DNA of 34,861 bases from NCBI GenBank assembly GCA_027307405.1, contig DAHUXA010000021.1:1-34861 (forward strand), in the 5' to 3' direction. Positions within the stretch are counted from its first letter, which is position 1. Each line of letters begins with the position of its first letter. The translations under genes were made by a program, and so were the position numbers. The stretch comes from Hyphomicrobiales bacterium (GTDB lineage: Bacteria > Pseudomonadota > Alphaproteobacteria > Rhizobiales > Xanthobacteraceae). The notes under the pieces were generated by a model. That model saw nothing but the letters and a program-made list of their open reading frames with translations, did no database searches and was not told the DNA's origin. Of this stretch, positions 5,774 through 20,763 are shown piece after piece.

Positions 5774-6805
5774 TCACCGGCCCTTCAATACATCGGCGAG
5801 CGAGGGCAGCCGGGGCAGCAAGCCTGGCGGCAGGCCAGCGCGGGCCGGGGCCTCGGTGCGCTCGGCAGCACGCAATTTGGCCGAACGGGAGCGCGGGTTG
5901 CGAGCAGTCTCATCATCATCGGCGGTCACAGGACGCTTCGTGACCGCCCGGAAAGTTGGCACTGCACGTTTGATTTCCGGCGCGTGGCGCGAGCCGCGGC
6001 GACTCTCGCCGCGGTCGGCAAGGAATGCCTTGACGATACGGTCCTCGAGCGAGTGGAACGACACCACCACGAGTCGTCCGCCGGCCTTAAGGACGCGCTC
6101 GGCGGCTTGAAGCGCGCCGGCCAACTCACCCAGTTCATCGTTCAAGAAGATACGGAGTGCCTGGAACGTGCGCGTCGCTGGATGGATGTCGCCGGGACGA
6201 GACCGCACGACCAAAGCAACAGTCTCTGCGAGCTTGCGGGTGGTTTCAATCGGCGCGCCGGCACGCGTCTTGAGAATGGCACGCGCGACGGCACGCGAAT
6301 GCCGCTCCTCGCCAAGGGTAAAGATGATATCGGCGAGATCCCGCTCGCTGGCTGTGTTGACTACGTCGGCAGCGCTGGCGCCCTCGCCGCTCATGCGCAT
6401 GTCGAGCGGTCCATCCAGACGAAACGAAAAACCGCGCCCGGCGGTATCGAGTTGCATCGAAGAGACGCCGAGATCAAGCACAACGCCATCAACGACGTTG
6501 TATCCCGCCTCGCGCGCGATCGCGTCGAGATTGGAAAAGCGATCTTCAGCAAGGACCAAGCGACCTTTCGCCTGCTCAACCAGGTCGGCTCCGCGCGCGA
6601 TCGCGCTTTGGTCACGGTCGATGGCAATGACTTTGCAATTGGCGGCCGCGAGGATGGCTCGCGTATAGCCGCCGGCACCAAAGGTGCCATCGATGTAGAC
6701 GCCGCCGTCGCGCACATTGAGAAATTCGATCGCGGGGCGGCCGAGCACGGGAATGTGGAGGGCCGGTCCGCCAGCGACAGCCGAGCCGCCGCCGCCCGCC
6801 GTCAT
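5774..6805 (-). CDS. rsmH: RsmH (MraW), 16S rRNA m4C1402 methyltransferase
   Basis: RsmH N4-methylates C1402 of 16S rRNA using S-adenosylmethionine. The chosen start gives 343 residues, slightly longer than the usual 310-330 because of a Gly/Ala-rich leader ([13 protein letters not shown]) and a basic Ala/Arg-rich tail. The SAM-binding motif [10 protein letters not shown] is at about residues 39-48 and [16 protein letters not shown] follows the usual pattern. The open frame continues upstream to 7420, but that would overlap all of mraZ. The ATG at 6803-6805 overlapping the mraZ stop (ATGA) is the credible start. Confidence 0.96.
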
Positions 6806-7281
6806 TCCCGTGCTCCTGGCGCTTTGGGCGCCGCCACCTGGGAACTCAGCTCTCCTTTGAGCGCGCGCACCTTTCTGGTGGCCTCCGCGAGCTCGCCGTG
6901 GAAGCGGCCGGGTTCCCAGATCTGAAACTTGTGACCAAGACCGACAAACGTGACCGTTTCTGAAATCTCTGCATGACGCTTGAGGTTTTCGCCCAACACC
7001 ACCCGCCCCTCGCCGTCGATCTTCAGTGTTTCGCTGGTCCCAAACAGCGCCAGCGCCAACTGTTCGCGCTGGTCCGAAAACGGGGCATAGCGCCCCATCA
7101 AGGCCTCGATCTCCACCATCAGCGCATTTCCGCCGGCGTCGATCGCGGGGCGATCCATGGCCGGATAGCAATAAAGGCCCTCGAAACCGTCGCGGCGCAG
7201 CGCCGAACGAAACGGGCCAGGGATCGAGACCCGCCCCTTGGAGTCGAGCCGCAGCGTGAAATTCCCCACGAAGCGGTTCAT
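6802..7281 (-). CDS. mraZ: MraZ, transcriptional regulator of the dcw cluster
   Basis: MraZ is a ring-forming DNA-binding protein that binds TGGG repeats ahead of its own gene and represses the division cluster in other bacteria. The protein from the ATG at 7279-7281 is 159 residues and starts [13 protein letters not shown], matching the family. Two SpoVT-AbrB-type half-domains are visible: [14 protein letters not shown] near the N-terminus and [14 protein letters not shown] in the middle. An upstream in-frame ATG at 7311 would add ten residues, but a G-rich Shine-Dalgarno stretch lies just before 7281. The C-terminal Ala/Pro tail is not conserved. Its box array lies at 7400-7433. Confidence 0.96.
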
Positions 7282-7399
7282 ACCCCCCACTCCATACCGA
7301 CTGGACGCCACCAGGGACGCTCTGGAAGCACCCCCTAAAAATGCGCGGGAAGCCTGGCTTTCGACTCCGGCTCGCGCTTGACAGGGTGATGTCCCGTAT

Positions 7400-7433
7400 T
7401 GGGAAACTGTGGGATATCATGGGATTAGATGGG
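7400..7433. promoter_or_regulatory. MraZ-box array: four TGGG repeats with 10-base period
   Basis: Read on the plus strand, TGGG begins at 7400, 7410, 7420 and 7430, so one box falls on each helical turn with 6-base spacers. Three of the four continue as TGGGA. Direct TGGGN repeats with short fixed spacers are the known recognition pattern for MraZ. The array sits about 120 bases ahead of the mraZ start and overlaps the candidate promoter. Binding is inferred, not shown. Confidence 0.85.
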
Positions 7434-7439
7434 CGTCAA
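7411..7439 (-). promoter_or_regulatory. Candidate mraZ/dcw promoter overlapping the MraZ boxes
   Basis: On the minus strand TTGACG (7434-7439) is followed after 17 bases by TATCCC (7411-7416). The -35 element is good and the -10 element is poor. The MraZ boxes cover the -10, the spacer and the edge of the -35, which would fit repression by occlusion. The transcript would carry a leader of roughly 120 bases before mraZ. Weak support overall. Confidence 0.35.
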
Positions 7440-7553
7440 GAAATCGGCCCCAGATCCTCCCGGAGTCGGGTTGCGGTGGGTCAATGCCATTAACGGCGGT
7501 TAAACTTAAAGAAACGTTGCCGAATCCCGGGCGGGCCGGGCGCGGGGAAAGCC

Positions 7554-8294
7554 ATGTGGATTGGGCTGTTCAGCGACATTCACGCCAATCGCGAAGCTCT
7601 CGAGGCAAGCCTTGATCATGCGCGCCGCGCCGGCATCAGCCGCTTCATTTTCCTCGGCGACTATGTCGGTTACGGCGCCGATCCCGCTTTTGCGGTGGAC
7701 ACGGTGATGCGCGAAGTCGAGGCCGGCGCAGTGGCGCTGCTCGGTAATCACGACGCCGCCATATTTAGTGGCACGGGCGGCATGAATTCGGTCGCAGCAG
7801 AAGCGATCGACTGGACGCGGCCCAAGCTCGACGTCACGCAGCGCGAATTCCTCACACAGCTGCCGTTGACCTTCGAGGACAGCAACAGATTATTCGTCCA
7901 CGCCAGCGCGCACGCGCCAGAGCGCTGGGAATACATCACCAGTGTTCAGAGCGCCTCCCGCAGCTTCATGGCTACACGCGCGCAGGCAACGTTCTGCGGC
8001 CACGTGCACGTGCCCGAACTCTTCCATCTATCGCCAACCGGCAAACTCGCAGGGTTCCAGCCGGTGCAGGCGGTGGAAATCCCTCTGCGCGCGCCCCGGC
8101 GATGGCTTGCGGTGATTGGCTCAGTCGGCCAGCCGCGCGATTACAATCCAACCGCCTGCTATGGCGCGCTCGATAACGAACGTAACGCGCTGACCTACGT
8201 GCGCGTGCCTTATGACAACGAAACGGCCGCACGCAAGGTGCGCGAAGCCGGGCTGCCGGAAATCTTGAGCCATCGCTTGATCGAGGGGGCTTGA
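7554..8294 (+). CDS. Calcineurin-like metallophosphoesterase (YfcE-type fold)
   Basis: A 246-residue soluble protein with the full dinuclear-metal phosphoesterase set: DxH at D8/H10 (SDIHAN), GDYVGYG with D36, GNHD at 64-67, a later His in FVHAS, and GHVH at 149-152. Such enzymes hydrolyse phosphomonoesters or diesters, and some dephosphorylate proteins; the substrate cannot be read from sequence. A GGGGAAA ribosome site lies just before the ATG. It ends 3 bases before the GTG of a Ser/Thr kinase gene, so the two are almost certainly co-transcribed. That suggests, but does not prove, that it reverses the kinase's phosphorylation. It is divergent from mraZ. Confidence 0.9.
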   Translation: MWIGLFSDIHANREALEASLDHARRAGISRFIFLGDYVGYGADPAFAVDTVMREVEAGAVALLGNHDAAIFSGTGGMNSVAAEAIDWTRPKLDVTQREFLTQLPLTFEDSNRLFVHASAHAPERWEYITSVQSASRSFMATRAQATFCGHVHVPELFHLSPTGKLAGFQPVQAVEIPLRAPRRWLAVIGSVGQPRDYNPTACYGALDNERNALTYVRVPYDNETAARKVREAGLPEILSHRLIEGA

Positions 8295-8297
8295 GCC

Positions 8298-9701
8298 GTG
8301 GATCCACGCAAGCTCGAAGCTGGACAACTCGTTGACGGCTTTTGTCTCGTAGAGCCGCTACAAGCGGGCGGCATGGCGAATTTCTGGCGTGTAACGCGCA
8401 GCGGCAACGATCTGCCCATGCTGATGAAGATTCCGCTGTTGCGGGCCGGTGAAGACCCGCTCACGATAATTGGCTACGAGGTCGAGCAGATGATCCTGCC
8501 GCGCCTTTCGGGCCCACACGTGCCACGTTTTGTGGCGGCCGGCGATTTCGAGCGGCCTTATATCGTGATGGAATTGATCGTTGGTCCCACAGTGAAATCG
8601 CTGTTGGAGAAAGCGCCGCTACCACCGGATGAGGTTGCAGCGATTGGCGCGAAGGTCGCTTTCGCCCTGCACGATATCCACCGCCAGCACGTCATCCATC
8701 TCGATCTCAAGCCGAGTAACGTGATCTTGCGCGGGAACGATGCCGTGCTGATCGATTTTGGGCTGTCGCGACACGATCAATTACCCGATTTGGTGCGAGA
8801 AGAAGCAGAAGGCCCGGTCGGAACTGGCGCATATGTCGCGCCCGAGCAGGTGCTGGGCGAACGAAGTGACCCGCGCAGTGACCTTTTTGCCCTCGGCGTG
8901 ATCCTGTATTTTTTGGCGACCGGCGAGCGTCCGTTTGGCGAACCGCAACGTGCCGAGAATTGGCGGCTGCGGCTGTGGCGGGACCCGACGCCGCCGCGCG
9001 GTCTCAATGCCGCTGTCCCGCCCTGGCTGCAGGAGGTCATCCTGCGCTGCCTGGAGGTTAATCCGGAGGAGCGCTATGCCACGGCGGCCCAGCTGGCCTT
9101 TGATCTCCAACATTCCGACCACGTCAATCTCACACAGCGTGCCGCGCGGACGCGGCGGGATGGCATTTTCAGCGTAGCCTGGCGGTGGTTGCGGCAGGCT
9201 CGCAGACCGCCACTACAGCAACGCCCTGCACTGACCAGTCATCTCGCGGCTGCACCGATTGTGCTGGTCGCAATCGATCTCGAGCCCGGGCATGAACCGC
9301 TAAGCCAGGCGCTCGCGCTTGCAGTGCGTCGTGTGCTCGCGACAGAGCCAAACGCGCGGCTTGCCTGTATCAACGTGCTGAAAATCGCTCGTCTTACACT
9401 CGATGAGCTCGAGGACACGCAGGGGCGGAATCCTCATCTCGGTCGCCTTATCGAGCTCAAACACTGGGCGCGATCCATTCCAGTGACGCCAGAGCGCGCT
9501 ACTTATCACGTACTCGAGTCAACCGACCCAGCCGGCCAACTCATCGACTATGCCCAACATAACCGCGTCGACCATATTGTGATCGGTGCACGCGGAAGCT
9601 CCAAGCTGCGCCGCTATCTTGGCAGCGTATCCGCGCGTGTTGTCGCTGAAGCGCCTTGCACTGTGACCGTTGTGCGTCCGCCAGGTCATCCGCCCCCATG
9701 A
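8298..9701 (+). CDS. Ser/Thr protein kinase fused to a C-terminal universal stress protein domain
   Basis: Residues about 14-275 form a Hanks-type kinase: a Gly-containing loop (LQAGGMANF), ATP lysine K44 (MLMKIP), αC Glu near 61-63, catalytic loop HLDLKPSN at 134-141 (HLD instead of HRD), DFG at 153-155 and APE at 181-183. All catalytic residues are kept, so it should be active. After a basic linker (about 276-318), residues about 320-460 form a universal stress domain. It ends IGARGSSKLRRYLGSVS then CTVTVVRPP, an ATP-binding signature one residue shorter in its middle spacer than the classic form. No membrane segment, so a cytosolic sensor/kinase. The start is GTG at 8298, 3 bases after the phosphoesterase. 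Confidence 0.9.
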   Translation: MDPRKLEAGQLVDGFCLVEPLQAGGMANFWRVTRSGNDLPMLMKIPLLRAGEDPLTIIGYEVEQMILPRLSGPHVPRFVAAGDFERPYIVMELIVGPTVKSLLEKAPLPPDEVAAIGAKVAFALHDIHRQHVIHLDLKPSNVILRGNDAVLIDFGLSRHDQLPDLVREEAEGPVGTGAYVAPEQVLGERSDPRSDLFALGVILYFLATGERPFGEPQRAENWRLRLWRDPTPPRGLNAAVPPWLQEVILRCLEVNPEERYATAAQLAFDLQHSDHVNLTQRAARTRRDGIFSVAWRWLRQARRPPLQQRPALTSHLAAAPIVLVAIDLEPGHEPLSQALALAVRRVLATEPNARLACINVLKIARLTLDELEDTQGRNPHLGRLIELKHWARSIPVTPERATYHVLESTDPAGQLIDYAQHNRVDHIVIGARGSSKLRRYLGSVSARVVAEAPCTVTVVRPPGHPPP

Positions 9702-9810: not shown

Positions 9811-9889
9811 GTATGTTTGACAAGCCTTGCTTTTTTAATCGCACGCGGTGAATTATGCCGCCCCCTCCCACCACCGGTTTGGTCCGGCC

Positions 9890-10663
9890 ATGTCAATATT
9901 TTCGCCGGATTCCTTCATTGTCGCCGACGTTGCACCCTCGCCCAATTTTGACGAGCGCAAGGGCGTACGTTCGCCAGATATGATCTTGCTGCACTATACC
10001 GGCATGCAGACCGGCGAGGCCGCATTAGAGCGACTGACGGCTCCGGCGAGCAAAGTTTCGTGCCACTACGTGGTATTCGAGGATGGCCGCATCACACAGT
10101 GCGTGCCGGAGGAGAGACGCGCTTGGCACGCCGGTGAATCGTCATGGGCTGGCGAGACCGACATCAATTCGCGCTCGATTGGGATCGAAATCGTCAATCC
10201 TGGGCACGAGTTCGGCTATAGAGATTTTCCACTGCGGCAGGTTGCGGCTGTCATCTCGCTGTGCAAATCGATCGTTACCCGTCGCGGACCGATCAGCGCT
10301 GACCGGATTCTCGCACATTCCGATGTCGCACCCGCTCGAAAGCAGGATCCGGGCGAGAAATTCCCGTGGGGTCTGCTGAGCGAATCGGGTATCGGCCACT
10401 GGGTCCGTGCCGCACCGCTCGATCTCGAAGGAATGGGGTTCAAGCCTGGCGACCGCGGTGATGCGGTTATCCGTCTTCAGCGCGCCCTGCGCTCATATGG
10501 CTACGGTCTCAAGGAAAGCGGGATTTATGATGAGCCAACGCGCGAGGTCATCGCGGCCTTTCAGCGTCATTTTCGGCAGACGCGCGTCGACGGTATCGCG
10601 GACCCGTCCACCCTCCTGACATTGCGCGCGCTCATTGAGACGCGGCCAGCACCACGTGCCTGA
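9890..10663 (+). CDS. AmpD-like N-acetylmuramoyl-L-alanine amidase with peptidoglycan-binding domain
   Basis: Residues about 15-165 form an Amidase_2 (AmpD/PGRP) zinc domain: H35 (ILLHYTGM), H143 (ILAHSDVAP) and D153 (KQDPGEKF) match the metal ligands, and E100 sits in the conserved IGIEIVNPG strand. The C-terminal part (about 180-245) is a PG_binding_1 repeat (GDRGDAVIRLQRALRSYGY). It should cleave the MurNAc-L-Ala bond, probably on anhydromuropeptides for recycling. No signal peptide is evident, favouring the cytoplasm. The ATG at 9890 gives 257 residues and the family-like MSIFSPDSF; a GTG at 9848 would add 14 residues. Neither has a strong ribosome site. Confidence 0.9.
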   Translation: MSIFSPDSFIVADVAPSPNFDERKGVRSPDMILLHYTGMQTGEAALERLTAPASKVSCHYVVFEDGRITQCVPEERRAWHAGESSWAGETDINSRSIGIEIVNPGHEFGYRDFPLRQVAAVISLCKSIVTRRGPISADRILAHSDVAPARKQDPGEKFPWGLLSESGIGHWVRAAPLDLEGMGFKPGDRGDAVIRLQRALRSYGYGLKESGIYDEPTREVIAAFQRHFRQTRVDGIADPSTLLTLRALIETRPAPRA

Positions 10664-11200: not shown

Positions 11201-12175
11201 CTACTGAGATAGCACGCCGGCCTTCTTGATGATGGGCACCCATTTGTCGATCTCGGAAATGAGATGGGCGCGGAGCACTTCTGGGCGCGCCCGTTCCGGC
11301 GCGACAGTCTCGGCGCCCGACTGCGCCAGTCGCTCCTTCACCTCGGGATCCTGCAAAGCTTTTTGGAGTGCGCCCGAAAGTCTGTCGATAACAGGTTTCG
11401 GCGTGCCCTTTGGCGCATACATTGCATACCAGACCACCATCTGGAATCCCGGCAATCCGGATTCCGACACGGTCGGCAGATCGGCGGCCACCTTGAGCCG
11501 CTGCGGCGTCGTGGCGGCGTACGCCTTGATCAAACCAGCCTTCGCGGGCTGCAAAACGTTGAGCGTCTGATCACACATGAAATCGAGATGGCCGCCCATC
11601 AGATCGTTGAGAGCGGGAGCAGTGCCTTTGTAGGGCGCGCCGCTGACCGTGGCGTCAATCGCGTGTAAGAAAAGCAGACTACACAGATGCGAGGCCGAGC
11701 CAACGCCGGCAAATCCGTGCGTCATCTTTTCCGTGTTGGCTTTCACATAGGCGACAAATTCCTTGAAATTGTTCGCGGGAAAATCCTTGCGAGCGACGAA
11801 GGCCATCGGCGATTCTGCGACCAAACCGGTTGGCTCGAAATCTTTCACCGGGTCGTAGCGTAAATGCGGATAGAACGCGACATTGGCGGCATGGCTGACG
11901 TGCATCAGCAACAGCGAGTGGCCATCGGGCAACGAGGCCGCGACCTTGGCGGTGCCGATGGTGCCGCCGGCGCCGCTCGTATTCTCGACAACGAATTGCT
12001 GATCAAGAGCTTTACTCATGCCGTGCGCAAGAATGCGCGCGATGACGTCGGCGGGACCACCGGCGGCGAATGGCACCGTGACCATCACGGGTTTTGATGA
12101 AAATTCCTGCGCGGCAGCGTCTCCAACAAACGTGCACGCAAGCCAAAAACACAACACACTCAATATTCGATGCAT
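11201..12175 (-). CDS. Bug/TctC-family tripartite tricarboxylate transporter substrate-binding protein
   Basis: A 324-residue periplasmic binding protein. The signal peptide is MHRILSVLCFWLACTFVGDAAAQ, cleaved after AAA or AAAQ. The mature part has family hallmarks: VPFAAGGPADVIAR near the N-terminus, VENTSGAGGTIGT, and the late motif LPTVSESGLPGFQ...WYAMYAPKGTP. Bug proteins bind carboxylates and usually serve TctAB membrane partners, none of which is in this window. The ATG at 12175 is chosen over one at 12223 because GGGAG lies at a proper distance and the signal peptide starts there. It is the last minus-strand gene after the TRAP genes, 233 bases after the nearest, so it may have its own promoter. 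Substrate unknown. Confidence 0.92.
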   Translation of the reverse strand: MHRILSVLCFWLACTFVGDAAAQEFSSKPVMVTVPFAAGGPADVIARILAHGMSKALDQQFVVENTSGAGGTIGTAKVAASLPDGHSLLLMHVSHAANVAFYPHLRYDPVKDFEPTGLVAESPMAFVARKDFPANNFKEFVAYVKANTEKMTHGFAGVGSASHLCSLLFLHAIDATVSGAPYKGTAPALNDLMGGHLDFMCDQTLNVLQPAKAGLIKAYAATTPQRLKVAADLPTVSESGLPGFQMVVWYAMYAPKGTPKPVIDRLSGALQKALQDPEVKERLAQSGAETVAPERARPEVLRAHLISEIDKWVPIIKKAGVLSQ

Positions 12176-12281
12176 CGAACGTGACTCCCACTTCGCAATG
12201 TCTGGTGATTTAGCGCCGAGCATCTAGACGTCAGCCAAAGCAGCCGTCCAGAAAAAGCAGCAGGCAATACGCGTCAAATTT

Positions 12282-12297
12282 AGCCGAAGCTTTGGCT
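12282..12297. other. Imperfect palindrome in the gap between the two binding-protein genes
   Basis: AGCCGAAGCTTTGGCT is a dyad matching its own reverse complement at 14 of 16 positions. It lies 107 bases upstream of the Bug gene start, within the 233-base gap 12176-12408. It could be a regulator site; nothing else stands out in this gap. Confidence 0.25.
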
Positions 12298-12408
12298 TTA
12301 AACGTCACGACGGCAGGCAACGCACTAGTACCCTGACGACATTTATCCTGCACAAAGCGTCAAAGATGTCGTCGTCGACGCCAACAATAGCCCGGGACTG
12401 CACCCCAC

Positions 12409-13376
12409 TTATTTCGTGTAGGCGTCGAGCATCGCCACACCATCGGCGCCGGCAGACGCGGCCCACTCTTTGGCGATGACGGCGCCGATTCTTGCCAGGC
12501 CAGATTCAAGTTGCGGACTTGGCGCAAGTACGACGATGCCGGCATTCTTTAGCTCATTGGTCTTCACCGTCATTTCCTCGACCGACATTTTCCAGCCGCG
12601 ATCTTCGGCGGATTTCGCCGCTTCCGTCACCGCATTCTTTTCCATGTCTGAAAGGCGATTGAACGCAGCCTTGTTGGCGAAGACCATGTTGCGCGGCAGC
12701 CAAGCCTGCGTGTCGACGTAATGCGTCAGGTACTGTTCCGATTTCGATTGCACCCCGCTCGATGCCGACGTCATCATCACATCGACGCGGCCGGACGCAA
12801 ACGCAGCGGGAAGATCGGGTACTTCAATCTGCGTCGGCTGCGCGCCCGCGAGTTCGGCGATTCGTTTTGTCATCACGTTATAGGTCCGGAATTTCAGCCC
12901 CTTGAGATCGTCAATCGATTTGATTTCCCGTTTGGCGTAAACGCCCTGCGGTGGCCACGGAACCGAAAACAAAAGGATCAATCCTTCCTTCGCGAGTTGC
13001 CTTTCGAGGTAGGGTTTCTGCGCATCATAGAGCTTGCGCGCGCCGTCATAGCCGGTTGCGAGAAAGGGAACCGAGTCGAGGCCGTAAACCGGTGCCTCGT
13101 CGGCAGCAAGCGAAATCAGGACTTCGCCAGCCGCCACCTTGCCATCGCCAACCGCCCGCTTGATTTCGGCGTGTTTGACCATCGTTCCGCCCGGATGGAC
13201 GATGATCTTCAACGACCCGCCGGTGGCCCTATCCACATCAGTCGCAAATTGCACGACGTTTTTGGTGTGAAAGGCTCCTGCCGCATAATTCGTCGGCAAA
13301 TCCCATTGAGTCTGTGCCGAAGAGCCGGCCCCACAAACGCGCAGGCGCATGCAAGGACCACACTAGTCCTTTTCAT
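12409..13376 (-). CDS. TRAP transporter DctP-family binding protein, apparent frameshift in the signal peptide
   Basis: The main frame (from 13350 down) encodes a complete mature DctP domain, with the Arg-bearing LKGLKFRTYN motif and the usual VPDLPAAFASGRVDVMMTS stretch, but its own start MRLRVCGAG gives no signal peptide. An ATG at 13374-13376, behind a GGGGGG ribosome site, opens another frame reading MKRTSVVLACACAFVG. One extra base in the G-run (plus-strand CCCC at 13329-13332) joins this to AGSSAQTQWDLP, giving a normal signal peptide ending SSA and a 322-residue protein. The tandem neighbour has FAQTKWNLP at the same place. A sequencing error or a recent single-base deletion are both possible. 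Confidence 0.9.
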
Positions 13377-13403
13377 CGTAGCCCCCCGTCGTAGGTGGTC
13401 GGC

Positions 13404-14381
13404 CTATTTCTTGTAGGCCGCAATCACCGCTTCCCCGTCGGCGCCGGCTTTCTTGAGCCAGTCGGCCGTGAGCTGATCGCCTACCTTTTTCAAATCTGAA
13501 TTTAGCTTATCGCTTGGCGGCATCACCTTCATGCCGTGCGACTTGAGTTGATCCAGATACCAACCGGCCTTGTCCTGCCACATCTTCCAGCCGCGCGTTT
13601 CAGCCGCGGCCGCCGCCTTAAGCAACGCCTCCTGTGTCGGCTTGTCGAGGGCATCAAATGTCGCTTTGTTGATGAAAGTTATGTTTTTCGGAATCCAGGC
13701 TTGCGTATCGTAGAAGTGTGTCATGGACTCCCAGGCTTTGCTGTCATAGCCAGTCGCCGCGGACGTCATGAACGAATTGATGACACCAGTCGCCAGCGCC
13801 TGGGGCAGCTCCGCAGCCTGCACCGTCAATACTTGCGCGCCGACCAGCTCGCCGATGCGCGCGGTGCCGACATTGTACGCGCGCCATTTAAGTCCCTTCA
13901 TGTCATCGACCGAATTGAGGTCCTTCTTGGCGTAAATGCCCTGCGGCGCCCAAGGCACTGCAAACAACAACATCAACCCTTGTGACGCGAGCTTTTTCTC
14001 GATCGTGGGCTTCGAGGCCTGCCAGAGCTTCATGGATTCCGGATAGCTCGTCGCTAGAAATGGGATCACGTCGACGCCGTAAATGGGGTCTTCGTTCTCG
14101 TGCAGCGAAATTAGCACTTCGCCAATCTGCGCCTGCCCAGTCTGCACAGCGCGCTTGATTTCGGGCGCCTTGAACAAAGAGGCACCGGCATGAACGGTGA
14201 TCTGCAATTTGTTGCCGGTTGCTGTCGCCACATCTTTGGCAAACAGCACAAGATTTTCGCTGTGCGGATTATCCGGCGGATAGGCAGCGGGCAAATTCCA
14301 CTTTGTCTGCGCGAAACCAGGCTGCACCGACATCGCAGCCATTACCGTAGCGACGAGGACCAAACTCCGAAACGAGCTCAT
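13404..14381 (-). CDS. TRAP transporter DctP-family substrate-binding protein
   Basis: An intact 325-residue periplasmic binding protein for a TRAP transporter. The signal peptide MSSFRSLVLVATVMAAM continues to a cleavage site at GFA-QTKW. The family's substrate-carboxylate Arg is in MKGLKWRAYNVGT. The ribosome site AGAGGGG lies before the ATG. It starts 21 bases after dctM and ends 27 bases before a second, clearly paralogous dctP, so the two arose by tandem duplication and share many blocks (EIKRAV, GEVLISL, VPFLAT). TRAP receptors of this type mostly bind organic acids; the ligand cannot be told here. Confidence 0.95.
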   Translation of the reverse strand: MSSFRSLVLVATVMAAMSVQPGFAQTKWNLPAAYPPDNPHSENLVLFAKDVATATGNKLQITVHAGASLFKAPEIKRAVQTGQAQIGEVLISLHENEDPIYGVDVIPFLATSYPESMKLWQASKPTIEKKLASQGLMLLFAVPWAPQGIYAKKDLNSVDDMKGLKWRAYNVGTARIGELVGAQVLTVQAAELPQALATGVINSFMTSAATGYDSKAWESMTHFYDTQAWIPKNITFINKATFDALDKPTQEALLKAAAAAETRGWKMWQDKAGWYLDQLKSHGMKVMPPSDKLNSDLKKVGDQLTADWLKKAGADGEAVIAAYKK

Positions 14382-14402
14382 GAAACGCCCCTCTGCAACT
14401 GA

Positions 14403-15713
14403 TTACCCAGGGAAAACCCAACGCGGTAGCACCATGACGATATCAGGAAATACCGTAATGATCGCCACTGCAACGACAAGAAGGAAGAAAAACGGCAACG
14501 ATGCGCGCGCAACGGTGTTGGAATCCTTTCCGCTCATTGTTTGCAGCACGAACAGATTGAACCCGACTGGTGGCGATACCTCCGCCATTTCTACGACAAG
14601 TACGACGAAAATTCCAAACCAGACGAGGTCAAAACCTGCCTGTTTGATCATGGGGACCACGATCGACGTCGTGAGCACAATCATCGAAATGCCATCGAGC
14701 GCAGTGCCAAGCACGATGTACATCACTGTCAGTGCTGCTATCAGCGCGTAAGGGCTAAGATGGAAACTGTCGACCCAGGTCGCCAATGTCGCTGGAATGC
14801 CGGTATAGGCCATCGAGGTCGACATATATGAAGCGCCCGCCAAGATCAGCATGATCATACAGTTGACGCGGACCGTTCCCATCACGCTGGCCCAAAACGA
14901 ATCCCAGGTGAGCGCATCGTGCCACCATGCAATTGCGAGCGACCCCATCACGCCCCAAGCCGCGCATTCAGTTGCAGTCGCCCAGCCCACCATCAATGAA
15001 AGGAAGACCAGTAGGATCAGCAACGTCAGCGGGATCAGTTGCCTGGATTCACGAAGTTTTTCTCGAAACGTCATCACGGGTTCGGCTGGCGGCGTTTTTT
15101 CCGGATGTGCCAGCGACCAGCCGGCGATGTAGCCGGAGTAAAGTACCATCACCAGAAAGCCTGGCAGGAATCCGGCAAGAAAAATCTGAATGATCGAAAC
15201 GTTGGCCGCTACCGCGTAGACGACCATGGTAATTGACGGTGGGATTAGAATGCCAAGCGTACCTGCTCCGGCAAGCGAACCAAGCGACACCATTTCATCG
15301 TATCCGCGCTTTTTTAGCTCCGGCAGCGCGATCTTGGCGACCGTTGCGCACGTCGCCGCTGAGGAGCCCGACACCGAACCGAATATTCCGCAAGCGAGCA
15401 CGTTCACGTGCATCAACCGGCCGGGGATTTTATTGAGCCATGGTGCAAGCCCGCGGAACATTTCATCCGATAGTTTGGTGCGGAACAGGATTTCACCCAT
15501 CCATATGAACAGAGGCAATGCGGCGAGAGTCCACGAATTGCTGTTGCCCCAAATGGTGGTTGCAAGCACGGGGCCGGAGGGAATACCGCCGCCTATGAAC
15601 TGCATGCCGACGTAACCGGTCGCCATCAGCGCCATTGCAATCCACACTCCGCCTGCAAGCAGGATCGTCAAAAAAACCAGCAGCAGGGCCGAGATGCCAA
15701 CCAGCTCGGTCAT
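14403..15713 (-). CDS. TRAP transporter large permease subunit (DctM)
   Basis: A 436-residue, very hydrophobic protein with the DctM-family pattern of about 11-12 membrane segments. Signature stretches include CGIFGSVSGSSAATCATVAKIALPEL and the ILIPPSITMVVYAV block. It forms the sodium-coupled translocation channel in the inner membrane with DctQ. The ATG at 15711-15713 (MTELVGISALLLVF) lies one base after the dctQ stop; an upstream ATG at 15743 would overlap dctQ and add ten residues. Transcribed between dctQ and the two dctP genes. Confidence 0.96.
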   Translation of the reverse strand: MTELVGISALLLVFLTILLAGGVWIAMALMATGYVGMQFIGGGIPSGPVLATTIWGNSNSWTLAALPLFIWMGEILFRTKLSDEMFRGLAPWLNKIPGRLMHVNVLACGIFGSVSGSSAATCATVAKIALPELKKRGYDEMVSLGSLAGAGTLGILIPPSITMVVYAVAANVSIIQIFLAGFLPGFLVMVLYSGYIAGWSLAHPEKTPPAEPVMTFREKLRESRQLIPLTLLILLVFLSLMVGWATATECAAWGVMGSLAIAWWHDALTWDSFWASVMGTVRVNCMIMLILAGASYMSTSMAYTGIPATLATWVDSFHLSPYALIAALTVMYIVLGTALDGISMIVLTTSIVVPMIKQAGFDLVWFGIFVVLVVEMAEVSPPVGFNLFVLQTMSGKDSNTVARASLPFFFLLVVAVAIITVFPDIVMVLPRWVFPG

Positions 15714-15714
15714 G

Positions 15715-16260
15715 TCAAACACCGCTTTGAATGGCTTGCTCAACGACCTCTTCGGCCGTTTGCGGTTTCGGCTTCTCGTAACGTGGCGGATTGCCGCGCA
15801 CGACGTGAATGAACTCGTCGATAAATGCGATCAGCAGAATGAGCAGGCCGCCGCTGTATCCGAGCTGCGGGATCCACAGGGGCACCGCCAATACACCTTG
15901 GGCCATGTCATGGAACCGCCAGGAATCGAATGTCAGCAGTACGGCGTAGTAGGTGAAAAAGGCCACAAAGAATCCACCGACCAGCAATGATGCGATTTCA
16001 ATGACGTGGCGTGTGCGACCCTCCAACTGGTCGATCAAGAGTCCGACGCGGATCATTTCACCGTGACGAAAGGTGTATGCAAGCCCCAGAAACGACGTCG
16101 CCACCATGCACCACGAGACAAGATCGTCTCCGGCCGGGATATTCAGACCGAGAGGACGGCCGGCGGAAAGCAGCATCATCAACACGAAGATGGCCAGCAA
16201 AAAGCCACCGGCAGCGTACCCCGCGAAGAGATAAAGTTTGTCGAGCAAATTGCGTGTCAT
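15715..16260 (-). CDS. TRAP transporter small permease subunit (DctQ)
   Basis: A 181-residue membrane protein with four hydrophobic helices, at about 10-35 (YLFAGYAAGGFLLAIFVLMM), 50-70, 85-110 and 120-145. Between helices lies the typical TFRHGEMIRVGLLIDQL segment of DctQ. It pairs with DctM. The ATG at 16258-16260 is preceded by a GGGGG ribosome site; an ATG at 16275 lacks one. It is the first intact gene of the TRAP run, 81 bases after the broken ModA-like gene. Confidence 0.94.
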   Translation of the reverse strand: MTRNLLDKLYLFAGYAAGGFLLAIFVLMMLLSAGRPLGLNIPAGDDLVSWCMVATSFLGLAYTFRHGEMIRVGLLIDQLEGRTRHVIEIASLLVGGFFVAFFTYYAVLLTFDSWRFHDMAQGVLAVPLWIPQLGYSGGLLILLIAFIDEFIHVVRGNPPRYEKPKPQTAEEVVEQAIQSGV

Positions 16261-17154: not shown

Positions 17155-20100
17155 ATGTCGAGAAAAAAGCCACCACAACTCTGGGATTTCTGGATCGACC
17201 GCGGGGGTACTTTCACCGATGTGGTTGGTCGACGCCCTGACAACACGTTGGTGGCGCATAAGCTGCTGTCCGAAAACCCCGAGGCCTATGCCGACGCCGC
17301 CGTACAGGGCATTCGTGATTTGCTCGGACTGAAGGCCGGCGAAACAATCCCGCCTGGCCGCGTTGGCGCCGTGAAGATGGGCACCACCATCGCAACGAAC
17401 GCCCTCCTCGAACGCAAGGGCGAGCGTACACTTTTACTGATCACCAAGGGTTTCCGTGACGCGCTCAAGATCGGCTATCAGGCACGCCCAAAAATTTTCG
17501 CCCGCCACATCATCAAGCCTGACATGCTTTACGAACGCGTCGCCGAAGTTGACGAGCGGGTGCGTGCCGACGGCACCGTGGAACGGGAGCCCAACCTGGC
17601 GGCGGTGCGTGTCGATCTGGAGGCTGCCAAGGCCGACGGTATTGAAGCGGTCGCAATCGTATTCATCCACGCCTACCGCTTTCCAAAACACGAGAAAAGC
17701 GTAGCCGCACTCGCGCGAGAAATGGGTTTCGCGCAGGTTTCGGTAAGTCATGAAGTGTCGCCGCTGATCAAGCTCGTCGGTCGCGGCGATACCACGGTGG
17801 TGGATGCCTATTTGTCACCGATCTTGCGCCGTTACGTTGCGGAAGTTGACAAGGATCTCGATGCAAGACGATCTGCTGCGCGACTGATGTTCATGATGTC
17901 GTCCGGCGGGCTGACGGCCGCCGAACTATTCCAGGGAAAGGACGCTATCCTGTCCGGCCCCGCGGGCGGGGTTGTCGGCATGGCAGAAACGGGACGGCAG
18001 GCGGGTCTCAGTCACCTGATTGGCTTCGACATGGGCGGCACATCGACCGACGTTTCCCATTTCGATGGCGAATACGAACGCGCCTTCGAAACAGAGGTCG
18101 CTGGTGTGCGCATGCGCGCTCCCATGATGCTCATTCATACGGTCGCTGCGGGAGGCGGCTCCATTCTGCACTTCGATGGCGCACGTTTCCGCGTCGGCCC
18201 CGACTCCGCCGGTGCCAATCCCGGGCCCAAGTGCTACCGCCGCGGCGGCCCGCTCGCGGTAACCGATGCGAACGTCATGGTCGGCAAGCTCATTCCCGAT
18301 TTCTTTCCGAAGATTTTTGGTCCTTCGCAGAATCTTCCTCTCGACGCACATGCCGTGCGCAACGCCTTCACCGACATGGCGCAACAGGTCGGAGGTATCA
18401 AAGCCGAAGAGGTCGCTGACGGTTTTATCAAGATCGCGGTGGAGAACATGGCCAATGCGATCAAGAAGATTTCGGTGCAACGCGGATATGACATCACCCG
18501 CTACGCGCTCAACTGCTTCGGCGGCGCGGGCGGACAGCACGCTTGTCTGGTTGCCGACGCCCTGGGGATGACCCGCGTGCTCATGCATCCATTCTCTTCA
18601 TTGCTATCTGCCTACGGTATGGGTCTGGCCGACATACGCGCAACACGCGAACAGGCTATCGAGCTGCCGTTCGGCGATAAAGCGCTGAAGGCCATCGCAC
18701 GTATCGGCGCCGCCCTCGGCAAAGAGACGAAAGCCGAGGTTGCGGGCCAGGGTGTAATGACGGGCAAGATTAAAATATACGTACGGGCGCATATTCGTTA
18801 TGCGGGCACCGACACCGCCCTGGTAGTAGCGGCCGGTAGTCCCGCGGCGATGAAACGCGCGTTCGAGAAAGCGCACAGGTCCCGTTTCGGTTTTATCGAT
18901 CGTACAAAACAGATGGTGGTCGAAGCTGTATCGGTCGAGGCCGTCGGTGGCGGCGCTCGATTCAGCGAGAAGTCGGCAAGACGATCGCGCACCGCGTTGC
19001 CAAAACCAGCGCTGCGAACGAAATTTCTTTCCAGCGGAACGTGGCATAAGACAAATGTCTACACCCGCGAGCAGCTCAAACCCGGAGCGCGCGTCAGAGG
19101 TGCCGCAATCATTATCGAGCCGCACCAAACCATTGTGGTCGAACCCGGCTGGCAAGCGGAATTGACCGCCAAGAACCACTTGCTGCTCACGCGCGCCAAG
19201 AAGCTCAAGCGGACGCACGCCATCGGCACCCACGCCGATCCGGTTATGTTGGAAGTATTTAACAACCTCTTCATGTCAATCGCAGAACAGATGGGCGTGT
19301 CCCTGCAAAACACGGCTTATTCCGTCAACATAAAGGAGCGGCTTGATTTCTCATGCGCGGTGTTCGCGCATGACGGCACGCTAGTGGCTAATGCACCGCA
19401 CATGCCGGTGCACCTCGGCTCAATGGATCGTGCCGTTGAAACCATTATCCGCGAAAACATCGGCCGCATCCGCCCTGGCGATGTCTACGCCATCAACGCA
19501 CCTTACAACGGCGGCACTCACCTGCCGGATATCACCGTCTGCACTCCGGTGTTTGATGACCGAAGGAGATCGATTTTATTTTGGGTGGCCTCGCGCGGAC
19601 ATCACGCGGATGTGGGTGGCATCTCGCCCGGCTCAATGTCGCCGAACGCCACCACAATCGAGCAGGAAGGCGTTCTGTTTGATAATTTCAAGCTCGTCGA
19701 CCGCGGCCGCTTCCGCGAGAAGGAGCTGATGGCGGCGCTCACAGGCGCCAAATTTCCGGCGCGCAATCCGGTGCAGAATATCAACGACATCAAGGCGCAG
19801 ATCGCCGCCAATGAAAAGGGCGTGGCGGAGCTGCGCAAGATGGTCACGCATTTCACGCTGCCTGTCGCGAAAGCCTATATGCAACACGTTCAGGACAACG
19901 CAGCCGAAAGCGTGCGGCGCGTCATCGACCGGCTGCACGACTCGGAATTCAGCTACGAGATGGATCAAGGCACCGTAATCAAGGTGAAGATCACGGTGGA
20001 CAAGGCAAAACGCGAGGCAACGGTAGACTTCACTGGCACAAGCGAACAGCAGCCGACCAATTTCAATGCGCCGGAGCCGGTGGCGCGCGCGGCGGTGCTC

Positions 20101-20763
20101 TACGTATTCCGCGTCATGGTCGACGATGACATCCCGATGAACGCCGGGTGTCTGAAACCAATCAATATTGTGATCCCAAAGCGATCGATGCTGTCGCCGG
20201 AGTTTCCCGCCGCCGTGGTCGCCGGCAACGTAGAGACATCACAGGCTGTGACCAATTGTCTTTTCGGCGCGCTCGGCGCACTTGCTGCCGCACAGGGTAC
20301 GATGAACAATCTCAACTTCGGCAATGCGCGCTATCAATACTACGAAACCATTTGCTCCGGCTCGCCCGCCGGGCCCGGTTTCAATGGCACGGATGCGGTT
20401 CACACCCACATGACGAATACGCGCCTCACCGATCCGGAGGTGTTGGAATTTCGCTATCCTGTATTGCTCGAGGACTTCCATATCCGCGCCGGCTCCGGCG
20501 GCCGTGGCAAATGGCACGCCGGCGACGGCATTCGTCGCACCATCCGTTTCCTTGAAAAGATGGAATGCACGGTCTTGTCCGGCCACCGTCGGGTGCACCC
20601 CTTCGGCCTCGCGGGCGGCGAAGCCGGTCAAGTCGGCGAAAACTGGGTGCGGCGCAAGAATGGCCGGATGGAACGCTTGCAGGGATGCGACGCTACCGTC
20701 ATCGACGAAACCGAGGCGATCATCATTCAAACGCCAACCGCCGGCGGATATGGCGCAGAGTAA
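17155..20763 (+). CDS. Fused hydantoinase A/B (5-oxoprolinase-type) protein
   Basis: A 1202-residue protein joining both halves of the ATP-dependent hydantoinase/oxoprolinase family. HyuA-like residues 1 to about 680 have GGTFTDVV at 17-24 (phosphate binding), [22 protein letters not shown] near 290, and [18 protein letters not shown]. The HyuB-like part, from about 700, opens [21 protein letters not shown] and has DITVCTPVF and [10 protein letters not shown]. Fused proteins of this size include 5-oxoprolinase and N-methylhydantoinase-like enzymes; sequence alone does not choose. The reaction is ATP-driven opening of a cyclic amide. Being divergent from a TRAP system suggests a linked uptake and degradation function. 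The protein looks cytosolic and intact. Confidence 0.92.

Follow-up and report, generated by a model that had tools for sequence, protein, structure and literature searches.

A gene for a calcineurin-like metallophosphoesterase (MPE) and a gene for a soluble Hanks-type Ser/Thr kinase with a C-terminal universal stress protein (Usp) domain form, as judged by comparison across relatives, a real, conserved and operon-like unit made of known parts and shared widely among alphaproteobacteria. We read this pair, with somewhat better than even confidence, as a FixK-controlled, co-transcribed low-oxygen signalling operon that came to adjoin the dcw cluster of division genes. The window, i.e. the whole stretch of DNA analysed (34,861 nucleotides from a Hyphomicrobiales bacterium), carries the pair exactly as a sequence-only reading had described it, with an intact MPE gene ending 3 bases before an intact kinase-Usp gene, between mraZ and an AmpD-like amidase gene (Table 1). 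Pfam agrees with these assignments: the MPE is matched by Metallophos_2 (4.3e-15) and Metallophos (5.9e-11), the kinase domain belongs to the Hanks-type Ser/Thr kinases (Pkinase, PF00069, 5.8e-29, 101.7 bits against a cut-off of 31.7) and the C-terminal domain to the Usp family (PF00582, 3.2e-17, against a cut-off of 24 bits). The genome of the window, a draft in 459 contigs, contains a single full-length copy.

Table 1. Positions of the gene pair and of the features around it in the window
Feature	Position	Strand	Description
mraZ	6802..7275	-	PF02381; opens the divergent dcw cluster; context, outside the unit
TGGG-type direct repeats	7400..7434	.	10-base period, between mraZ and MPE; two exact TGGGA-N5-TGGGA against 0.03 expected
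FixK2-consensus site (candidate)	7471..7484	.	TTGCGGTGGGTCAA; at -83 from the MPE start; weak, one half-site being TTGC
MPE gene	7554..8294	+	ORF, 246 aa, ATG start, intact; calcineurin-like, YfcE/Ap4A-hydrolase side of the superfamily
Kinase-Usp gene	8298..9701	+	ORF, 467 aa, GTG start, intact; Hanks-type Ser/Thr kinase with C-terminal Usp domain, soluble; Pfam
Kinase domain			About residues 11-271 of the kinase-Usp protein; Pfam and PDB alignment to PknB
Usp domain	9261..9677	+	Residues 322-460 of the kinase-Usp protein; PF00582, 63.8 bits; departs from the ATP motif
AmpD-like amidase gene	9848..10663	+	Start 9848 or 9890; PF01510 (Amidase_2) 1.3e-35, with PG_binding_1; context

A search for the same two-gene adjacency in other genomes, the check proposed in the sequence-only reading, confirmed that the pairing is conserved; the refuting outcome named there, a pair not kept as neighbours in relatives, did not arise. 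The kinase-Usp protein was found in 170 of the 391 sampled genomes of the window's family, distributed over 16 of 47 genera (E 1e-60), and the MPE in 184 of them (E 1e-40). All 170 kinase-carrying genomes also encode the MPE, a coincidence beyond chance, and 14 of the 184 MPE genomes have no kinase match at E 1e-60; we inspected 11 of these 14 (all except G344, G502 and G520), and some MPE-only cases proved to be contig cuts or to retain kinase remnants (L190, L056, L193). Beyond the family, the kinase-Usp protein was present in 17 of 299 sampled genomes of the phylum and in 6 of 240 of the class, the window's own among the 6; its distribution is wide but patchy.

For the comparison of neighbourhoods, 110 loci were assembled: the window, L006, 20 plus 5 stretches from searches for relatives, 4 plasmid records and 79 loci hand-picked to span genera. 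A scan of named genomes for close relatives gave 6 loci. The two genes are adjacent, in the order MPE then kinase, in 105 of the 110 loci (the broken kinase of L054 counted in), although such counts are not independent events, the loci being a non-random set of related, partly hand-picked and sometimes short contigs that cover a subset of the 170 kinase genomes. Spacing is mostly tight, and in the 94 pairs with no mraZ in the examined stretch the intergenic gap ranges from -10 to 49 bases with a median of 3. Five loci depart from this arrangement: L055 and L057 have the MPE alone, L056 has the MPE with only a Usp remnant, L065 is a plasmid record cut at its start with an annotated MPE just over the origin, and L169 has the kinase with no MPE match within its stretch. 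Two genomes, G053 and G318, each gave two kinase matches, and those of G053 lie one at dcw (L039) and the other elsewhere (L053).

Away from dcw, the 110 loci include copies beside bchE and hemN (13), phosphoketolase (12), ccoN (2), nosZ (1) and acs (1); some adjoin ccoNOP, encoding a cbb3 oxidase, and in L052 a 2-oxoacid:ferredoxin oxidoreductase is a neighbour. Among the 78 neighbour proteins, 79 Pfam families are represented, the commonest being B12-binding/radical SAM (4), phosphoketolase (3) and BON (3), and the majority of neighbour genes are not low-oxygen genes. The lone MPE gene of L057 (positions 1040-1774) is preceded, at -81, by a perfect FNR-type box and lies near genes for cytochrome b/bc1 and coproporphyrinogen oxidase.

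Because some of these neighbours are respiratory or low-oxygen genes, we searched the upstream regions of the pair for FNR/FixK boxes. Of the 93 non-dcw loci, 43 have a strict TTGA-N6-TCAA box between -80 and -35 relative to the start of the MPE gene; none of the 11 dcw loci does (L131, lacking upstream sequence, was left out of the box counts). Among the controls, 19 of 1914 upstream regions of other ORFs (1%) carry one, a rate that may be too low as these ORFs were called mechanically (at least 150 codons, first ATG) and many are not true genes, as do 75 of 36010 random windows of the same loci. Where a strict box is present (51 loci), the nearest one starts at -47 to -66 of the MPE in 43. 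Both the consensus and the distance to the start are as in the Bradyrhizobium FixLJ-FixK2 regulon, for which the accessible portion of the source gives TTG(A/C)-N6-(T/G)CAA and the usual spacing (PMC9104804). Searched with this FixK2 consensus, the interval from -130 to -35 contains a box in 49 of 93 non-dcw loci, 2 of 11 dcw loci and 50 of 2146 controls (2.3%); extending the interval to -300 raises the figure to 60 of 93, against 94 of 1813 controls, and leaves 33 of 93 loci without a box. Boxes in the longer interval are found in 13 of 25 genus groups, but outside the window's family in just 2 of 17 loci and in none of 3 plasmid records; those of the bchE-linked group, at -135 to -233, possibly belong to the divergent gene.

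The window itself contains no strict TTGA-N6-TCAA box over its entire length. A site similar to the FixK2-consensus site listed in Table 1 is present at -82 in L038 and at the matching place in G554, the nearest relative, and no such site was found within 300 bases of mraZ in any of the 14 same-genus genomes that lack the pair there. Because about 2% of ORF upstream regions carry a FixK2-consensus site by chance, we regard the window's site as suggestive only. The genome encodes one Crp/FNR-type regulator scoring over the cut-off, whose best PDB match is FixK2 (1.2e-61) and whose gene adjoins that of a PAS protein with FixL as its best solved relatives (2e-51). Both a FixK and a FixL are encoded in the genome, and its ccoN gene has a perfect box upstream. 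Across the family, ccoN occurs in 150 of the 170 kinase genomes versus 132 of the 221 without the kinase, figures inflated by shared ancestry, and 20 of the 170 have no ccoN match at E 1e-150.

In the kinase alignment (106 rows; L054 and L056, where the kinase is broken, were excluded), K44, E61, D136, K138 and D153 are identical in every row, as are P182 and E183 of the APE motif, and because these catalytic residues are invariant the kinase should be active. RD-type, loop-activated PknB-like kinases are recognised by the HRD arginine, a Thr or Ser in the activation loop and a three-glycine loop, and the kinases studied here do not fit this type. The arginine at residue 135 is replaced by Leu (59 of 106) or His (47), making them non-RD; the first and third Gly of the glycine loop are also replaced, mostly by His (91) and Ala (102); and in 98 of the 106 the activation loop, from DFG to the GT that precedes APE, holds no more than one Ser/Thr, the one in the window's kinase standing directly after DFG-L. 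With the HRD arginine replaced and the loops nearly free of Ser/Thr, switching through activation-loop phosphorylation appears unlikely. The NCBIfam PASTA-kinase model reached 152.6 of the 450 bits needed, over residues 18-281 only, and no membrane segment was apparent in the kinase-Usp protein (highest 19-residue mean hydropathy 1.59). As to the Usp domain, which had been described as commonly ATP-binding, we take the motif of the ATP-binding class to be G-2X-G-9X-G(S/T); it is found in 0 of 106 domains (the L006 row being cut before it), and 10 of 106, the window's included, have an 8-residue spacing instead, so the data speak against the description for this family. The predicted structure of the kinase was unusable (mean pLDDT 44.6).

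The MPE has the hallmarks of the calcineurin-like enzymes, both in its Pfam score and in the D-x-H, GD, GNH[DE], H and GHxH motifs. Its metal ligands are conserved, with D8, H10, D36, N65, H66, H116, H150 and H152 identical in all rows that cover the position (107 or 108 of the 108 aligned). The two signatures that we assume for the PPP family, [LIVMN][KR]GNHE and GDxVDRG, were both absent from all 108 MPEs, of which that of L131 is partial, and 104 of the 108 have GDxVGYG. A profile of 15 MPEs detects 3rqz (3.2e-53, no function given), 3qfm (SapH, an Ap4A hydrolase), a diadenosine tetraphosphatase, YfcE and ApaH, 2qjc and 1su1 being among the Ap4A hydrolase/YfcE-type entries; 3rqz aligns over MPE residues 3-245, the GQPRD motif included. 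No PPP phosphatase was among the PDB matches at E 0.01; of the closest structures, those that carry a named activity are nucleotide hydrolases. In the part of a review available to us, bacterial Ser/Thr phosphatase activity is assigned to the PPP and PPM families (PMC6213207). The proposal that the MPE is the cognate protein phosphatase of the kinase is disfavoured by the absent signatures and by the structures that it resembles. In all four matching NCBIfam equivalog or subfamily models the MPE falls far below the cut-off, and its predicted structure is of moderate quality (mean pLDDT 69.8).

The presence of the pair beside dcw is a feature of some lineages only. We found mraZ within the examined stretch in 11 of the 105 pair loci and no mraZ match in the other 94; an amidase match lies on the other side of the pair in 9 of the 11 mraZ-linked loci and in only 1 of the 94. 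In the window's genus, mraZ was found in 16 of 42 genomes (the other 26, near-complete genomes among them, gave no match at E 1e-20), and in 14 of these 16, all but the window and G554, mraZ and the amidase gene stand divergently side by side, and neither the MPE nor the kinase gave a match between them. Ten of 13 dcw-linked copies are not visibly broken and 3 are damaged or lost: in L054 the kinase is shortened and lies in two frames, in L192 it was not found, and in L188 the MPE lies in two frames with no kinase match. The last locus is that of G554, which shares 78-93% identity with the window in its dcw genes; at positions 6803-7690 the place of the kinase is held by a small gene that, on visual inspection, resembles one for a secreted PRC-barrel protein. 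A tree of 55 kinases sets the 10 unbroken dcw rows apart by one change, on a branch with a support of only 46, and nine of the ten share a branch with a support of 98; the non-dcw row L110 is close to them.

Around the pair in the window, Pfam identifies MraZ, RsmH (MraW) and a PBP transpeptidase upstream on the other strand, and the labels ftsL (no Pfam match) and murE (outside the Pfam scan) were given from position. The amidase scored 100.1 bits against the NCBIfam AmpD model, below the cut-off of 143, and AmpD-like therefore denotes likeness only. The repeats at 7400..7434, of which a fourth (TGGGC) and the likeness in relatives were judged by eye, resemble the MraZ box. A block at 7488-7520, close to GGTTAAACTTAAGGAAACGTTGC, is kept upstream of mraZ in relatives. 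We considered it as an MPE-specific regulatory motif of the dcw group and rejected this, since in L041, L054 and L192 the MPE is at least 2 kb away and the block is still next to mraZ; it is probably a dcw regulatory element. Further downstream, at 11201-15743 and 17155-20763, the window contains genes for TctC/DctP-type solute-binding proteins and TRAP permeases, followed by a gene resembling a fusion of caprolactamase alpha and beta subunits.

Co-transcription, low-oxygen induction and each step after transcription are what we infer from these observations. When oxygen falls, FixLJ/FixK (or FNR) would turn on the MPE-kinase operon. For a non-RD kinase with nearly no phosphorylatable residue in its loop, synthesis itself would probably be the activation, and the Usp domain, lacking the usual ATP motif, would probably be a dimerisation or docking part. 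The active kinase would then phosphorylate proteins of the microoxic state. The MPE, whose sequence places it closer to Ap4A hydrolases and phosphodiesterases than to the PPP phosphatases, would most likely hydrolyse a nucleotide or phosphodiester of the same response; dephosphorylating the targets of the kinase would be its second option. In the lineage of the window, the pair would have ended up between mraZ and the amidase gene, outside division control. Taken further, the output of FixLJ-FixK might be a Ser/Thr phosphorylation circuit, with a constitutively active non-RD kinase-Usp and a nucleotidase-type MPE as its antagonist or the control of its ligand, a scheme that we put forward as tentative.

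The two genes could also share a low-oxygen promoter and have separate roles, with the MPE as a house-cleaning nucleotidase or phosphodiesterase and the kinase as a separate stress kinase. The profile of the MPE, nearest to nucleotide hydrolases, is what this would predict, and so are the 14 MPE genomes without a kinase match and the lone MPE that keeps its perfect box; yet no kinase genome is without the MPE, the adjacency and gene order are near-constant among the loci, and some of the MPE-only cases are cuts or remnants, which makes separate roles rather unlikely. A constitutive pair with boxes that serve only divergent neighbours is less probable still: some copies are indeed divergent to ccoNOP or near bchE, but the strict box mostly keeps its position relative to the MPE across genera and differing neighbours. 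PADLOC models of PD-T4-6 match the kinase (best 1.3e-52), which might suggest an anti-phage or other defence kinase. The best match, however, spans residues 11-276, the kinase domain common to Hanks kinases, the MPE matches no defence model at E 1e-5, and neither the FixK boxes nor the respiratory neighbours point to defence; we consider this reading the least credible of all.

PrkC/PrpC-like couples act on the cell wall in other bacteria, and the sequence-only reading had proposed that the pair, as a kinase/phosphatase couple next to the dcw genes, may steer wall synthesis or division. The pair does adjoin mraZ in the window and in 10 further loci, mostly with the amidase opposite, and most dcw-linked copies show no visible breakage. 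Nevertheless, the great majority of pairs lie away from mraZ and nearly always from any amidase match, mraZ and the amidase gene also occur together where the pair is missing, and the dcw-linked copies include decayed ones. On these three grounds (neighbourhoods, pair-free sites and decay at dcw) division control was rejected as a core function, and we judge steering from beside dcw very improbable. The location beside division genes is probably incidental, because the pair looks low-oxygen-induced rather than tied to division.

In having a kinase gene beside a phosphoesterase gene, the pair resembles the PrkC/PrpC and PknB/PstP couples. Unlike in these, the kinase has no PASTA match or membrane segment, and its partner is a calcineurin-like MPE with no PPP signature rather than a PPM phosphatase. 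The system had been considered undescribed, which is too strong for its parts. Ser/Thr kinases with a UspA domain, i.e. the same two domains as here, were listed in a 2005 survey from Mesorhizobium loti, Bradyrhizobium japonicum and Nitrosomonas europaea, with no mention of an MPE partner or of oxygen control in the portion of the survey at hand (PMC1262709), and three plasmid matches (48-52% identity) bear the RefSeq name 'bifunctional serine/threonine-protein kinase/universal stress protein'. A 2010 regulon reconstruction assigns, in its accessible part, a phosphoketolase and a 'putative kinase' (RSP0470) to FixK, whereas its UspA proteins are assigned to FNR and DNR (PMC2908626). The portions of the FixK2 regulon target tables that we covered do not list the pair. 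No paper on an MPE-kinase operon was found among the literature matches listed, although the genes may already be listed in some table of a regulon or transcriptome study; the combination of the two genes and its probable control by oxygen are new to us.

Our impression of the literature is that FixK2-type regulation in nitrogen-fixing symbionts has been studied mostly as transcription. If the proposed reading is true, a conserved kinase in a FixK2-type regulon would add a layer of protein phosphorylation to microoxic adaptation. Since the pair is common in the family, tractable strains should carry it, which would make direct testing possible.
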